Below are positions 13,643 to 33,936 of a stretch of 64,000 bases of DNA, piece after piece. The DNA lies in assembly GCA_015066635.1 (NCBI GenBank), contig SVOA01000002.1, positions 1 through 64,000 on the forward strand, given 5' to 3'. Position numbers and translations under genes: made by a program. The notes beneath the pieces are model-generated. The model searched no databases and was not told where the DNA came from. It worked only from the letters and a program-made list of their open reading frames with translations. How positions within the stretch are numbered: the first letter of the stretch is position 1; each line of letters begins with the position of its first letter. This DNA comes from Oscillospiraceae bacterium (GTDB taxonomy: Bacteria > Bacillota > Clostridia > Oscillospirales > Acutalibacteraceae).

Positions 13643-14941
13643 TTACCTTTTCAATAAAAACAGTTTTGCTCCGTGCGAATTGACTTCCGTTTTGAATTTG
13701 CCCGTTATTTCGGCGGCGTCTTTTCTTTGCCATAAATCTCTTAAAACAAAGTTTCCGTCAAGTCCGAGCTTCTTTAAATTAACGGTAACGGTCTTTTTAT
13801 CGCTTCCCGTATTGAATACCGCGATAATCGGTTCGTTTTTACCGCTTAATGCCTCCCACATAATTATATCCCCGAGTTTAACTACGGGATGCGCCGAGTG
13901 CGAATGCTGATTAACATCAAGCACTTCCCCGTTAGTGATAAGCCACAGAGTAAAGTCGTCGTTGTTGCGAAGTTCCCCTCCGAGCATAAGCGGAGAACGG
14001 AAAATGCTCCAGAGCGTCATCATTGTTATCTGTTCGTCCTCGGTAAACTGGGTAAATCTGTTCTGCGATCCGTGGCACGCGCCGTTTACTGAAACATTGC
14101 CGAGAGGCAGCATATCGCAGTCGGGCCAGCAGCCCTCCTTAACATAAGGATACCACTGCTCCGTGCGCGAAAACATTTCATAGAGTTTGTCCCACACGTC
14201 CCAGAAATCTCCCGTAATTCTCCACATATTTGCATACTGCGACAGATGACCGGCAGCGCTTACGGGAGCCGGTCCCGGAGAAAGCGAAAGCACCATATCG
14301 CGTCCGCAGTTATCTATGGCGCGGCGTATCATTTCAATCTCGCTTTTTGCGGAATACGGATCATAGGGCTTATACTCCGTGTTGGCAATATCGTCAACCT
14401 TTACAAAGTCCACTCCCCAATCTGCGTAAAGCGAAAAAAGCGAATTATAATACTCCTGCGCTCCTTCCTTTGAGGTATCGACGCCGTACATATCGGTATT
14501 CCAGGGGCAGACGGAGAAGTGATGCGCAATATCCCTTGCGGTCTTGTCGGTACCAAGAATTTTTGTATTGCCGTGAACCGCCTGACGGGGAATTCCTCGC
14601 ATAATATGAATTCCGAATTTAAGTCCCATAAGATGAATTTTGTCGGCTATTGGTTTAAAGCCCTTCCCCCCCGCAGACGAGGGAAAACGGTTCTCAGCCG
14701 GAATAAGACGGGAATACTCATCCATACAAAGTTCGGTAAAATTATTGTAGAAGTTGTCCTTTGCTTTCGGCTCATACCACTGAATATCGCATACGACATA
14801 CTGCCAGCCGTACTGCTTTAAATTGTCGCGGATATACTCAGCGTTACCGATAAGCTGCTCCTCATTTACCGCGGCGCCGTAACAGTCCCAGCTGTTCCAG
14901 CCCATAGGCGGAGTGAGCGCAACGGAATTCTTATTCTTCAT
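13643..14941 (-). CDS. GH27-type alpha-galactosidase
   Basis: Glycoside hydrolase of 432 residues resembling family GH27 (alpha-galactosidase, clan GH-D). It begins with the hallmark LTPPMGWNSWDCYG. A nucleophile region is seen as VDFVKVDD and the acid/base region as WRITGDFWD. An all-beta C-terminal domain follows. There is no signal peptide, so it should act in the cytoplasm on imported alpha-galactosides; no transporter lies beside it. Alpha-N-acetylgalactosaminidase or isoprimeverose-type activity of the same family cannot be excluded. ATG start with AAGGAGAAGG upstream and its own promoter (14974-15002). Confidence 0.85.
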   Translation of the reverse strand: MKNKNSVALTPPMGWNSWDCYGAAVNEEQLIGNAEYIRDNLKQYGWQYVVCDIQWYEPKAKDNFYNNFTELCMDEYSRLIPAENRFPSSAGGKGFKPIADKIHLMGLKFGIHIMRGIPRQAVHGNTKILGTDKTARDIAHHFSVCPWNTDMYGVDTSKEGAQEYYNSLFSLYADWGVDFVKVDDIANTEYKPYDPYSAKSEIEMIRRAIDNCGRDMVLSLSPGPAPVSAAGHLSQYANMWRITGDFWDVWDKLYEMFSRTEQWYPYVKEGCWPDCDMLPLGNVSVNGACHGSQNRFTQFTEDEQITMMTLWSIFRSPLMLGGELRNNDDFTLWLITNGEVLDVNQHSHSAHPVVKLGDIIMWEALSGKNEPIIAVFNTGSDKKTVTVNLKKLGLDGNFVLRDLWQRKDAAEITGKFKTEVNSHGAKLFLLKR

Positions 14942-14973
14942 ACTGCCTTCTCCTTAAATATAATAATATATTT

Positions 14974-15002
14974 ATTGTACCATAAAAAGTATATTATGAC
15001 AA
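14974..15002 (-). promoter_or_regulatory. Promoter of the GH27 gene
   Basis: Minus strand TTGTCA (14997-15002), 17-base spacer, TACAAT (14974-14979). The near-palindrome ATAACGGTTAT at 15021-15031 lies about 20 bases upstream of the -35 and could bind an activator; that is inference. Confidence 0.55.
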
Positions 15003-15039
15003 TAAAAATAACTGACGGGTATAACGGTTATAAAAAAAG

Positions 15040-15064
15040 AAAAAAGCCCGTGCGCCGCACGGAC
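15040..15064 (-). terminator. Terminator of the candidate small RNA
   Basis: GCCCGTGC (15046-15053) and GCACGGAC (15057-15064) form an 8-bp stem with a 3-base loop; on the minus strand it is followed by T6. Confidence 0.8.
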
Positions 15065-15177
15065 TTTTGACAAGGAGGTATCAGTTACGTTCTTTGATAG
15101 CGGATTATCAGATTCGTAACCAACGTAATGAAAAAGAATTTTTGGGGGAATTCTTTTTGAGTTAGCAACCGCTAACT
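15040..15177 (-). ncRNA. Candidate small RNA with an anti-Shine-Dalgarno-like segment
   Basis: About 138 bases on the minus strand between a strong promoter and a strong terminator, with no convincing reading frame. In transcript order the predicted structure is: hairpin 1 (GTTAGC/GCTAAC, 15161-15176); hairpin 2 (AAAAAGAATT/AATTCTTTTT, 15131-15158, C-rich loop); hairpin 3 (TTACGTT/AACGTAA, 15085-15128, with an inner TGATA/TATCA hairpin); then a linker and the terminator hairpin. The linker contains ACCTCCTT (15072-15079), identical to the anti-Shine-Dalgarno core at the 16S rRNA 3' end, so it could pair with ribosome-binding sites. It may be a trans-acting regulator or a member of a known structured family. 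A cis-acting leader of the GH27 gene is less likely because that gene has its own promoter. Confidence 0.6.
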
Positions 15178-15183
15178 GAATAT

Positions 15184-15212
15184 ATCTTATCACATCATTT
15201 TGAATTTGTAAA
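15184..15212 (-). promoter_or_regulatory. Promoter of the candidate small RNA
   Basis: Minus strand TTTACA (15207-15212), 17-base spacer, TAAGAT (15184-15189). The predicted start near 15177 falls immediately before the first hairpin. It lies just downstream of the terminator of the preceding operon, so it starts an independent unit. Confidence 0.65.
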
Positions 15213-15239
15213 GCATTTTTTGTAAAGTTCACACTATAT

Positions 15240-15278
15240 TAAAAAATACACCCGAGGCGTTACCCTCAGGTGTATTTT
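15240..15278 (-). terminator. Terminator of the YdjIGH-like operon
   Basis: A 15-bp stem with one wobble pair (15243-15257 with 15264-15278) around a short loop, followed on the minus strand by a T run. Confidence 0.85.
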
Positions 15279-15286
15279 AATTATTA

Positions 15287-16123
15287 TCAGAAGTGTCCTC
15301 CGCCTCCGCCGTGGCTTGTGCCTGACGAGGAGGTGTGAACCGAACTGCCGCCTGACGAGGAGTGGCTTTCTGTCTGTATCTTTACTCTTGAAACGTGCGA
15401 GTAAAGGAAATGCTCATAGCTTTGAGACAGATTAAAACTGCCGTCGTCAAGATAATTTGCGGCGCTGCGCTGGAACTGAATTGCCTTGTAGCTCTTTTTA
15501 ACTGACAATACAACAATCAGCGAGATAATTAAACCGACTATAAGCGAAACGGCAATATTTGAAAAAGTCTTTTCCCCTGCCGACTCATAACCGCTGTAAT
15601 AGTAGTCCGACTCATAACCGTTGCTGTTGTTGACGTCAATTATGTTGCCCTGTCTGGCGCTTGAAACGAATTCCCTGACTCTGTCGGCATAGGTATAGAA
15701 GGCGCTGTAATAATCGCCGTCCGAGAGGTAACTCTGTACCTCGCTGTTAATTATGCTTATACCGTAGTCGGTAAGAGCCGTAATTCCGTAGCCCGTTGTC
15801 GAGAGCCAGTATTCTCTCTCCGACATACTTACAACAAGCAGACAGCCGTCGTTATTGTCTCCCTGACCGTAGCCGTTATAGTCATAGTAATCGTCGGCAA
15901 AGTCCATAGACGATTTGCCTCCGAGACTGTCGGTGGTAACAAGGACTATGTCAAACTGCAATTCGTCGCTTGCCTCGCACAGAAGCGCGTTAATTTTAGT
16001 CTCCTCATCCGGAGTGAGAAGGTCTGTGCCGTCAACGAGCAGATTATCCTTTGCCGCAAACGCGGGTACAAACGAAACCGCTATAAGTAAGATGCAGATA
16101 AGAAGTGATAAAACTTTTTTCAT
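15287..16123 (-). CDS. TPM-domain membrane protein (YgcG/YdjH-like)
   Basis: Membrane protein of 278 residues. A signal peptide (about residues 1-23, ending FAA) precedes a TPM domain at about 30-160, with DDYYDYNGYGQGDNNDGCLLVVS as its core. One transmembrane helix follows near 185-210. The cytoplasmic tail is Ser/Gly-rich and ends SHGGGGGHF, as in many YgcG-type proteins. It lies 12 bases after the zinc-ribbon gene and ends the three-gene operon. The set resembles YdjG-YdjH-YdjI of Bacillus subtilis, which works with PspA in the membrane stress response. That role is inferred; no pspA is present here. Confidence 0.82.
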   Translation of the reverse strand: MKKVLSLLICILLIAVSFVPAFAAKDNLLVDGTDLLTPDEETKINALLCEASDELQFDIVLVTTDSLGGKSSMDFADDYYDYNGYGQGDNNDGCLLVVSMSEREYWLSTTGYGITALTDYGISIINSEVQSYLSDGDYYSAFYTYADRVREFVSSARQGNIIDVNNSNGYESDYYYSGYESAGEKTFSNIAVSLIVGLIISLIVVLSVKKSYKAIQFQRSAANYLDDGSFNLSQSYEHFLYSHVSRVKIQTESHSSSGGSSVHTSSSGTSHGGGGGHF

Positions 16124-16135
16124 AACCGCACCCCC

Positions 16136-17218
16136 TTAAAGTCCCATAACGCCTATGACGACATAGACGAGGGCGCTGATTCCTGCAAACAGTCCTGCAA
16201 ACAGTCCCGCAAGTTTAGCTTTACTTGCAGGGATATTGCCGACAATTTTACCTGTCTGCCCGTTCATCGCAAAGGTCAGCTTTTCGCCCTTGTATTCGGT
16301 GTTGAGAAGCCAAACGGGATAAAGAGCGTATTTTGCAACGCCCTTCTTTACCTGAACCGAGCTGTTGTTTGCGGTTACGGTAACAAAGCCGTTAACCGTT
16401 GAACGCAGCGCATCCTCTGCGCTTGTTCTGACGCGGTCATTGGCTCTGCCGATACTGTCCTCCATGGTTACGTCATATCTGTCGGCAAGATAACCTGCGA
16501 GATATGCTGTCTGGAAGTCAACAGCCTCGGAAAAGTCGAAGGGTTCTATAGATTCCATAAGGTCGTCAGCCATTTTTGTCGAGCCGTCAACGGGAATGTT
16601 TGAAAAGCTCATACTGCCTGCCCTGAAAATGTCAAAATAACTCGTTTCGGTGTAGTTATATTCCTTGTCGCTCCAGGTTCTCACACGGGTACCCGTGAAG
16701 GAAGCCGCAGCATCAATGTCCGAATCAAAGAGCCAGAACGGTACATATATTCCCTTGATTTCCTTAACTTTGTTCTCAGACTTAAAGACGCTCGGTGCAA
16801 ATTTTTTGGAACCGACATAGGCTTTGAGAGCCTGCTTTGCCTGCTCTTTATTGAGTTTAAAGGGTATGACAAAGTCAGGCTTGATATCTCCCGAAAGTCT
16901 GCCTGACAGCACTACGGGGTTGCCGCAGTACGGGCAGGAGGTTGCCGCCGTGCTGGCGTCGCCGATAATCTCGCCTCCGCAGGTTTTGCACGCAAAGACA
17001 TTCATATCGCTGTCATCAAAGACATTGTCGCCGTTTTCGGCAGGTATTTCCCATTCAAATTTATCGGCAGGCTGACTGTTAAGTACTTCGTCCTTGCTTT
17101 TGAGCGCTTCTATATCGAACTCGCTGTCGCAGTACGGGCATTTCATTTTCTGAGCGCCCGGCTCGAAATTTATCGGCGCGTCGCAGTGAGGACATTTAAA
17201 GTTTAATAGTTCTGCCAT
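16136..17218 (-). CDS. Zinc-ribbon membrane protein (YdjG-like)
   Basis: Protein of 360 residues with two N-terminal zinc ribbons (CPHC...CPYC within the first 35 residues, and CKTC...CPYC near 76-97). A conserved middle region contains VPFKLNKEQAKQA, FAPSVF and YVPFWLFD. One hydrophobic segment lies at the extreme C-terminus (GLFAGLFAGISALVYVVIG). This architecture matches YdjG-type proteins encoded next to SPFH and TPM proteins. It sits between those two partners here, 28 bases after the SPFH gene, supporting a shared membrane complex. Biochemical function is unknown. Confidence 0.75.
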   Translation of the reverse strand: MAELLNFKCPHCDAPINFEPGAQKMKCPYCDSEFDIEALKSKDEVLNSQPADKFEWEIPAENGDNVFDDSDMNVFACKTCGGEIIGDASTAATSCPYCGNPVVLSGRLSGDIKPDFVIPFKLNKEQAKQALKAYVGSKKFAPSVFKSENKVKEIKGIYVPFWLFDSDIDAAASFTGTRVRTWSDKEYNYTETSYFDIFRAGSMSFSNIPVDGSTKMADDLMESIEPFDFSEAVDFQTAYLAGYLADRYDVTMEDSIGRANDRVRTSAEDALRSTVNGFVTVTANNSSVQVKKGVAKYALYPVWLLNTEYKGEKLTFAMNGQTGKIVGNIPASKAKLAGLFAGLFAGISALVYVVIGVMGL

Positions 17219-17246
17219 TTAATATCTCCAGTTAATAAATAGTTTA

Positions 17247-18539
17247 TCAGCCGTTAAAGGGTGAACCGCACTCGGGACAGAATTTGGGAAGGTTATTCTT
17301 GTCCTCGGGAACATAGCCGCACTTTACACACTTTACTTCCGTGTCCTTGGGGGCTCCGCAGTTTTTGCAGAAGTTACCCTCGTTGTCGGTGCCGCACTTT
17401 GCGCATTTCCAGCCGGAAGCCTTGGGTGCTCCGCAATTCTTGCAGAAGTTTCCTTCGTTGACGGTACCGCATTTGCAGGTCCAGCCTGCGGCTGACGAAA
17501 CAGCGCCTGCTGCAGCAGCGCCCTGCTCGTTGGCTATGTTAAAGAGGTTTGCAGCTGCGTTTCCGCCGCCGCCTGCGTTCATAGCCATACCCATACCGAT
17601 AAAGCCGTTCATGGCTCCGCCTTCGTTTGAAGCGGCGTTTCTCATGGCCTCTGCCTGAGCGCCTACAAGAGTAGCGGCTGCCATATTCGGATTTCTGTTG
17701 ATAGCGTCTCTCTGCGCTCTCTTGATAAGCTCCTGATCCTCTTCGGGAAGAGTAATCGGGTTCATAGCGATTGAAACAACTTCAAGGCCGCGAAGCTCGG
17801 ACCACTTCTGAGTGAGAGCCTCGTTCATGGCTGCCTCAAGCTCTGCAGAGTGAGTAGCTATCTGGTTGGGACGGATTTCAAGTTCCGACATCTTGCCGAA
17901 TGCAGGCTGAAGTGCGGAAATGAATTCTGTCTTTAACTGAGTGTCAAGTTCTTCACGTCTGTATTCCTCGGCAACGTTGCCGCATACGTTTGTGTAGAAA
18001 AGAAGCGGGTCGGCGATTCTGTACGAATAGATACCGCTGCACTTAACGGAAACGTCAACGTCAAGTCCGATATTCTTGTCAACTACTCTGAAGGGAATCG
18101 GGCTGGGAGTACCGAATTTATTGTCAACAAGTTCCTTGGTGTTGAAGTAATAAACTCTCTGGTCCTTACCCGTGTCGCCGCCGTATGCAAATCTCTTGCC
18201 TACGAGTTTGAAGGTTTCTTTAATAGATTCCTTGAGGTTGCCGGTAAAGATGCTCGGCTCTGTCGAGGTATCATAGGTGAATTCGCCGGGCTCTGCGCAA
18301 ACCTCAACGATTTTGCCCTGCTCAACGATAATCATACACTGACCGTCGGCAACAGCAATACCCGAGCCGTTTGAAATGATGTTGTCGTTACCTTTAGTAT
18401 TCGAGGAACGGGAAGTGATTCTCTTCTGTCCCTTGACCATCATTACATCCTTGTCAATAGCTTCGCAATAGAAGAATTCCTTCCACTGGTCGGCTAATGC
18501 TCCGCCGAGAGCGCCTGCTCCTGCTTTAATAAGTCCCAT
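17247..18539 (-). CDS. SPFH-domain protein with zinc ribbons (YdjI-like, virion-core family)
   Basis: Protein of 430 residues. An SPFH/band-7-like domain fills about residues 30-290; it lacks a transmembrane anchor but begins with the GLIKAGAGALGGALADQWK motif seen in YdjI-type proteins. An Ala/Gly/Asn-rich linker follows. The C-terminal 80 residues carry three zinc ribbons: two near-identical units ending EGNFCKNCGAPK and one ending FCPECGSPF. SPFH proteins form scaffolds on membranes. It is the first gene of the operon with the YdjG- and YdjH-like genes, preceded by a promoter near 18586-18613. The zinc-ribbon duplication is visible in the DNA too. Confidence 0.85.
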   Translation of the reverse strand: MGLIKAGAGALGGALADQWKEFFYCEAIDKDVMMVKGQKRITSRSSNTKGNDNIISNGSGIAVADGQCMIIVEQGKIVEVCAEPGEFTYDTSTEPSIFTGNLKESIKETFKLVGKRFAYGGDTGKDQRVYYFNTKELVDNKFGTPSPIPFRVVDKNIGLDVDVSVKCSGIYSYRIADPLLFYTNVCGNVAEEYRREELDTQLKTEFISALQPAFGKMSELEIRPNQIATHSAELEAAMNEALTQKWSELRGLEVVSIAMNPITLPEEDQELIKRAQRDAINRNPNMAAATLVGAQAEAMRNAASNEGGAMNGFIGMGMAMNAGGGGNAAANLFNIANEQGAAAAGAVSSAAGWTCKCGTVNEGNFCKNCGAPKASGWKCAKCGTDNEGNFCKNCGAPKDTEVKCVKCGYVPEDKNNLPKFCPECGSPFNG

Positions 18540-33734: not shown

Positions 33735-33774
33735 ACGAATTCACCTCCTATAAAATGATACGCTTGTACAGTGA

Positions 33775-33808
33775 GAAAAAAGCCTTTTCCGTCAAAGACA
33801 GAAAAGGC
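33775..33808 (-). terminator. Attenuator/terminator in the rplJL leader
   Basis: GCCTTTTC (33782-33789) pairs with GAAAAGGC (33801-33808), followed on the minus strand by T6. It lies between the L10 leader structure and rplJ, suggesting attenuation of rplJL relative to rplKA. Confidence 0.75.
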
Positions 33809-33831
33809 ATAAAAACTTTTAATTTAAGTTC

Positions 33832-33900
33832 CTTTTCCTCGGCAGGCAGATAAAATCTTTACGCTGATATCAGCACCTGCTGTCTTCGGCAAGCGAAATG
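33832..33900 (-). promoter_or_regulatory. L10 (rplJ) leader RNA
   Basis: On the minus strand the region contains GCCGAAGACAGCAGGTGC and later CTGCCTGCCGAGG, the conserved halves of the L10 leader that binds the L10(L12)4 complex and represses rplJL. The position, between rplA and rplJ, is standard. Confidence 0.82.
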
Positions 33901-33936
33901 TATTTTAACATACCCTTACGGGTTTGTCAAGTGCAA

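Follow-up and report, generated by a model that had tools for sequence, protein, structure and literature searches.

The minus strand of the window (the whole stretch of 64,000 nucleotides that was analysed) probably encodes a stand-alone, trans-acting small RNA (sRNA) of approximately 140 nt, which would be made under iron starvation and would pair with the Shine-Dalgarno (SD) regions of iron-protein mRNAs. We give this reading a probability of about 0.62. At the level of the sequence, it is supported by the anatomy of the locus, the sharing of its operator, the geometry of its promoter, its conservation, and the predicted exposure of its C-rich parts, and from these we infer the expression and repression of the RNA, the identity of the metal, the pairing, and the target set. 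Confidence is tempered by a nonsignificant energy test and by a narrow distribution, since the sRNA was found in 3 of the 39 genomes of the genus.

Anatomy and fold of the predicted sRNA

The predicted sRNA occupies positions 15037..15177 of the minus strand, with its start placed from the −10 box and its end from the terminator. The promoter that an earlier note on this DNA had described, TTTACA-17-TAAGAT, lies where it was placed, with the −35 box at 15207..15212 and, after a 17-nt spacer, the −10 box at 15184..15189. Boxes and spacing recur in two other species, where the −35 box is identical and the −10 box reads TATTAT. The boxes of the sRNA match the consensus at 9 of 12 positions and on their own are weak evidence, because this AT-rich stretch contains many promoter-like sites (7 in 1.4 kb; mean of shuffled sequences, 3.0).

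The predicted +1 is covered by the operator GTTAGCGGTTGCTAAC (15161..15176, minus strand), a palindrome of the form GTTAGC-N4-GCTAAC that on transcription would become the 5′ hairpin of the RNA. It is followed on the same strand by a hairpin at 15131..15158 with an open CCCCC loop (15144-15148); the homologues instead have their loop, CCCC, in the hairpin that comes after it. A third hairpin (15080..15124), in which 5 of 13 aligned pairs are changed on both sides among the three species, stands directly before ACCTCCTT. Next come the unpaired and conserved ACCTCCTTGT (15070..15079) and a terminator stem of 12 pairs (15042..15068, read from 15068 to 15042) with its T-run. All three hairpins reported before are thus present, but the first is primarily the operator palindrome. 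The intrinsic terminator also stands as reported and is present in both homologues; terminator-like sites number 2, against a shuffle mean of 1.2. These parts, namely the promoter, the hairpins, the terminator, and the unpaired ACCTCCTT, are real and lie on the minus strand.

The predicted folding energy of the RNA is −42.8 kcal/mol, compared with a mean of −25.2 for shuffled sequences (z, −5.07), and none of 200 shuffles was as low. ACCTCCTT (15079-15072, minus strand) is predicted to be unpaired, and opening it would cost 0.13 kcal/mol. It makes up the first eight bases of ACCTCCTTGT, which equal the anti-SD core of 16S rRNA. The exposed copy of the anti-SD core that had been proposed is conserved and predicted to be open in three species. 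The 8-mer alone is no evidence, because the genome holds 55 copies of ACCTCCTT.

The gap that contains the sRNA (14942-15286; 345 bases) is, as claimed, the largest in the window between greedy open reading frames (ORFs) of at least 90 amino acids, the next being of 330 bases. The claim that it holds no good reading frame is also borne out, as none of the four start codons within the predicted RNA is preceded by an SD, and an 86-amino-acid frame on the minus strand begins at 15232, upstream of the −35 box. The possibility that ACCTCCTT is the complement of the SD of a plus-strand gene was considered and rejected: the three loci hold one SD-preceded frame of at least 8 codons, which has 29 codons, is antisense, and occurs in one species, in a scan that misses frames with a stop beyond the scanned stretch.

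Homologues and conservation

Homologues were found by a terminator scan behind operator sites and are present in 2 of 38 sister species (G030, locus L034, and G029, locus L067). All three RNAs share TTTACA-17-TANNAT-7-operator, the CCCC loop, the unpaired ACCTCCTTGT, and the terminator, while the rest has diverged, and the distance from the operator to ACCTCCTTGT is 71 to 81 nt. The recurrence of promoter spacing, palindrome, ACCTCCTTGT, and terminator in otherwise diverged DNA indicates that this anatomy is more than chance. The CCCC or CCCCC loop is predicted to be open in the three species, and so is ACCUCCUUGU, with mean unpaired probabilities of 0.93, 0.90, and 0.81. Each RNA is thus predicted to offer C-rich single strands for pairing with SDs. 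The scan also gave other operator-terminator pairs, which we regard, by judgement and not by a test, as known promoters read from the wrong side.

In an alignment of these three sequences only, and with a structure derived from those same sequences, 94% of cells are paired and both sides have changed in 8 of 29 pairs, and none of 500 shuffles reaches either value. The compensatory changes whose absence from homologues would have counted against the earlier note are accordingly present in this small set. Sliding the pairing partner lowers pairing to 48% or less, and the count of pair types is reached by 28 of 500 shuffles. Six invariant pairs of the alignment are those of the operator and are uninformative about the RNA.

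A covariance model scores the three homologues at approximately 130 bits, as it must by construction, and the next matches in the genus at 27.2 bits. The same kind of search in 200 genomes of the family (135 genera, with stricter filters) returned the window itself only. Among 80 loci around relatives of a nearby SPFH gene, only L115 gave a strong match; its RNA is letter for letter that of G030, and the two are counted as one species. A first synteny comparison found no RNA at seven other SPFH loci of the genus. A BLAST search with the RNA in 98 genomes retrieved the window itself and short pieces in 12 others, several of which are the palindrome GTTAGC-N4-GCTAAC ahead of feoA-like genes and transporters. 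A genome of another genus (G039) matches the promoter segment at 85% at L002:1501-1541, perhaps by chance in AT-rich DNA; the stretch examined there shows neither an operator nor an RNA after the match.

The SPFH gene (Band 7; 17247..18539, minus strand) serves as a synteny anchor. It lies approximately 2 kb from the sRNA in the window, and the homologues of the two sister species directly adjoin its orthologue. In the tree of SPFH proteins, G000 pairs with G030 (82/92), with G029 nearby. The gene that follows the sRNA differs in all three species, and the sRNA is therefore read as a stand-alone gene in a related neighborhood. In the window, the sRNA is adjoined by a minus-strand group (15287-18539) that encodes a TPM-domain protein, a zinc-ribbon membrane protein, and the SPFH/Band 7 protein, which carries zinc ribbons at its C terminus.

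The operator and its metal regulon

The main functional clue to this RNA, which is absent from the earlier note, is that its predicted start sits on an operator common to a feo/DtxR-type regulon. The genome of the window contains six exact copies of GTTAGC-N4-GCTAAC, three of which are at feoA-feoA-feoB, one at an ABC transporter gene, where a one-mismatch copy adjoins it, one at a ZIP transporter gene, and one at the sRNA. The promoter region of feoA-feoA-feoB is shared with a divergent gene that carries both Pfam domains of the DtxR family, the family of the regulator IdeR. Of the copies in the feo region (L014:982-1545, corresponding to C8:8257-8820 in the own genome), one lies in the spacer between the −35 and −10 boxes, one begins 7 nt after the −10 box (TATAAT), and the third is within the operon directly ahead of feoB. 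The operator of the sRNA likewise begins 7 nt after the −10 box.

Across the 39 genomes of the genus, the exact pattern occurs at 89 sites, compared with 4 for reversed controls, and is present in 29 genomes. With two mismatches, it falls to noise level (16 sites in the own genome, against 25 reversed), and only exact or one-mismatch sites were therefore counted. Reading 85 of the 89 exact sites gave 80 distinct neighboring proteins, which include 26 FeoA, 13 iron-dependent repressors of the DtxR type, 6 FeoB_N, 5 Zip, 5 ABC_tran, 3 DUF3793, and 3 HMA proteins. The operator also makes it possible to read out a metal regulon in this genus.

The shared operator would place the sRNA promoter under the metal-responsive repressor of the iron uptake genes. 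Because the predicted start lies on the operator of this feo/DtxR-type regulon, the sRNA is most likely under the control of a metal, presumably iron, and its targets are probably iron-protein mRNAs. The DtxR-family repressor itself scores better with MntR profiles than with DtxR, all of them below the cut-off, and the metal may therefore be manganese.

Two further features of the regulon were observed. The operator precedes DUF3793 proteins at L043, L070, and L081, and flavodoxin-like and HMA-domain proteins are also among its neighbors, which suggests a role for DUF3793 in metal starvation. Genes resembling cysteine desulfurases (Aminotran_5; 2 of the 80 neighbors) lie divergent to feo beside the operator at L031 and L037 in sister genomes.

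Candidate targets

The target pattern was the complement of CCUCCUUGU placed ahead of a start codon, ACAAGGAGG-N3-11-ATG. It occurs at 21 sites in the three genomes that carry the sRNA, all of which were read, one of them heading a frame of 3 codons only. Six of the 21 belong to iron proteins, namely ferredoxin (in two species), RnfC, rubrerythrin, an Fe-S oxidoreductase, and a NifU-like protein that scores 25 bits against a cut-off of 187.9. Ferredoxin and RnfC sites are found in the own genome and the rubrerythrin site in a sister species; the list also contains rpsF, rplP, and GlnRS. The matched control AAAAGGAGG, which is a good SD but is mismatched to the sRNA, returned 76 rows representing 75 sites. 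All of these were read, and three were assigned to iron proteins from motifs and by visual inspection, with Pfam confirmation for one.

The proportions of 6/21 and 3/75 differ with a Fisher P value of 0.003 in a classification that was unblinded, and the Fer4 motif alone gives 4/21 versus 1/75 (P = 0.008). After removal of frames shorter than 50 codons and of near-duplicates, iron proteins account for 5/19 versus 3/54 (P = 0.025) and the Fer4 motif alone for 3/19 versus 1/54 (P = 0.052). Adding two oxidoreductase gamma subunits to the control as iron linked gives a P value of 0.012, which becomes 0.038 when the NifU-like protein is also dropped. Iron proteins thus appear modestly enriched among the SDs that match the sRNA, and this suggests iron-protein mRNAs as its targets.

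The duplex energy of the sRNA segment did not differ significantly between 15 Fe-S gene starts and 55 genes of the window (P = 0.26). The same comparison gave P values of 0.43 for the CCCCC loop and 0.81 for 16S rRNA, and only the difference of sRNA minus 16S reached 0.04. The 15 rows derive from 22 loci; of the loci that yielded no row, two had no complete ORF and the others were repeats. At least two of the rows (L204 and L262) look to be in the wrong frame, and poor start calls partly account for the nonsignificant result. The ferredoxin SD is ACAAGGAGG in two of the three species with the sRNA and ATAAGGAGG in the third. It is also ACAAGGAGG in 3 of 36 species in which no sRNA was detected, one of them represented by a genome (G036) that is 68% complete, a difference with a P value of 0.04 that is confounded by kinship.

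Proposed mechanism and alternative readings

In the proposed mechanism, a repressor of the DtxR family, most likely the product of the gene divergent from feoA-feoA-feoB, would bind the operator that covers the sRNA start. When the metal, most likely ferrous iron, is plentiful, the repressor would occupy the operator at +1 and the RNA would be off, and when iron is scarce, the RNA would be made. The operator hairpin at the 5′ end and the terminator at the 3′ end probably protect the ends of the RNA. Its exposed C-rich parts, chiefly ACCUCCUUGU and the CCCC(C) loop, would pair with SDs and block translation. The mRNAs of Fe-S and other iron proteins would be the preferred targets, with ferredoxin and RnfC as the candidates in this organism and rubrerythrin in a sister species, and iron would be spared.

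The earlier interpretation is partly supported by these results. Conservation in three species supports a stand-alone sRNA whose anti-SD core is exposed. That it may silence mRNAs with strong SDs is plausible and in keeping with its anatomy, while a general mimic of the ribosome tail appears less likely. Close to the latter is the reading of the RNA as a metal-regulated general brake on translation, in which ACCUCCUU would compete with 16S rRNA for every strong SD and iron mRNAs would not be favored. The identity of ACCUCCUU with the anti-SD core would suit such a brake, as would the ribosomal and GlnRS genes on the ACAAGGAGG list and several window genes with no link to iron that pair with ACCUCCUU equally well or better (down to −21.5 kcal/mol, versus −17.9 for ferredoxin). 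We hold it to be unlikely, given the modest enrichment of iron proteins among matching SDs and a conserved block that in three species extends two bases past the core (ACCUCCUUGU), into a stretch where the 16S letter differs. Iron could also be the wrong metal, with manganese or zinc as the signal and other mRNAs, such as those of metal transporters, as the targets. The sub-threshold MntR scores of the repressor and the operators at ZIP and ABC transporter genes point that way, but the operator neighbors in the genus are mostly FeoA/FeoB, proteins of ferrous-iron uptake, and iron proteins are found among the matching SDs, which makes this option distinctly improbable.

The remaining explanations dispense with a trans-acting RNA. 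A gene for an alpha-galactosidase (GH27, Melibiase_2; 13643..14941, minus strand) starts approximately 100 nt past the terminator on the same strand, and the element could be its 5′ leader or attenuator, the plain GH27 leader that the earlier note had named as an alternative. We see hardly any likelihood in this, because the downstream genes are unrelated across the three species, a strong terminator stem is present in all of them, and the alpha-galactosidase gene, which lies outside the unit, has a promoter-like site of its own (15002-14974). A leader of the SPFH gene was rejected together with that of GH27, as gene order differs among the three species. The operator might instead serve another unit, the remainder being untranscribed spacer that resembles an RNA by chance; the palindrome is symmetrical, and in two species the SPFH gene starts 184 to 222 nt off on its other side. 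This too is very unlikely: the window has no plus-strand gene running away from the operator, conservation of the promoter boxes, the CCCC loop, ACCTCCTTGT, and the terminator lies on the sRNA side, and the compensatory changes also speak against it. An iron-starvation sRNA that acts in trans is the reading we prefer over these four.

Relation to known RNAs

The functional kind to which it would belong, that of the iron-sparing sRNAs, is already known from RyhB, FsrA, IsrR, and MrsI, and the RNA described here is not placed in any described family. No iron sRNA of Oscillospirales was found in the searched, mostly open-access literature, as judged by titles and the openings of abstracts. Likened by description, the closest system in its workings appears to be IsrR of Staphylococcus, for which PMC9410917 reports Fur control, repression by iron, and Fe-S enzymes as targets. 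According to that text (PMC9410917), IsrR resembles the present RNA in the iron-linked repressor sites at its promoter, its approximately three hairpins and terminator, its C-rich regions, which lie in loops and next to a stem, SD pairing (predicted here), and conservation within a genus. It differs in being experimentally shown and controlled by Fur, whereas here a DtxR-type operator lies at +1, and the present RNA is found in only 3 of 39 genomes of its genus.

FsrA of Bacillus subtilis is also iron sparing and binds SDs via a C-rich motif, but it is Fur controlled and requires FbpA, FbpB, and FbpC, as PMC9410917 describes it. The iron-sparing sRNAs of Bacillota named there, FsrA and IsrR, are both under Fur (PMC9410917). 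Precedent for an IdeR site in the promoter of an iron-sparing sRNA comes from MrsI of Mycobacterium tuberculosis (PMC8628891; also PMC9410917), although its host is unrelated and its six-nucleotide seed is not described in the available part of PMC8628891 as a C-rich anti-SD motif. If correct, the proposed function would extend the iron-sparing sRNA strategy to a genus of Clostridia, with a different class of repressor, and would be one more instance in which unrelated sRNAs have converged on pairing C-rich anti-SD segments with iron mRNAs.

The suggestion that the RNA might belong to a family already catalogued found no backing in Rfam 15, in which no family matches it at the gathering threshold. 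The best sub-threshold match is SorX (RF02784), which reaches 23.4 bits where its gathering score is 46.6 (E value, 0.0063); the L034 homologue scores 20.8 bits. SorX is a proteobacterial RNA with an ACCUCC segment between a hairpin and the terminator, and the resemblance is treated as a shared short motif, not as homology. The only Rfam family that reaches its gathering threshold in the window is the ribosomal protein L10 leader (33767-33907, minus strand; 78.5 bits), an ordinary occurrence.
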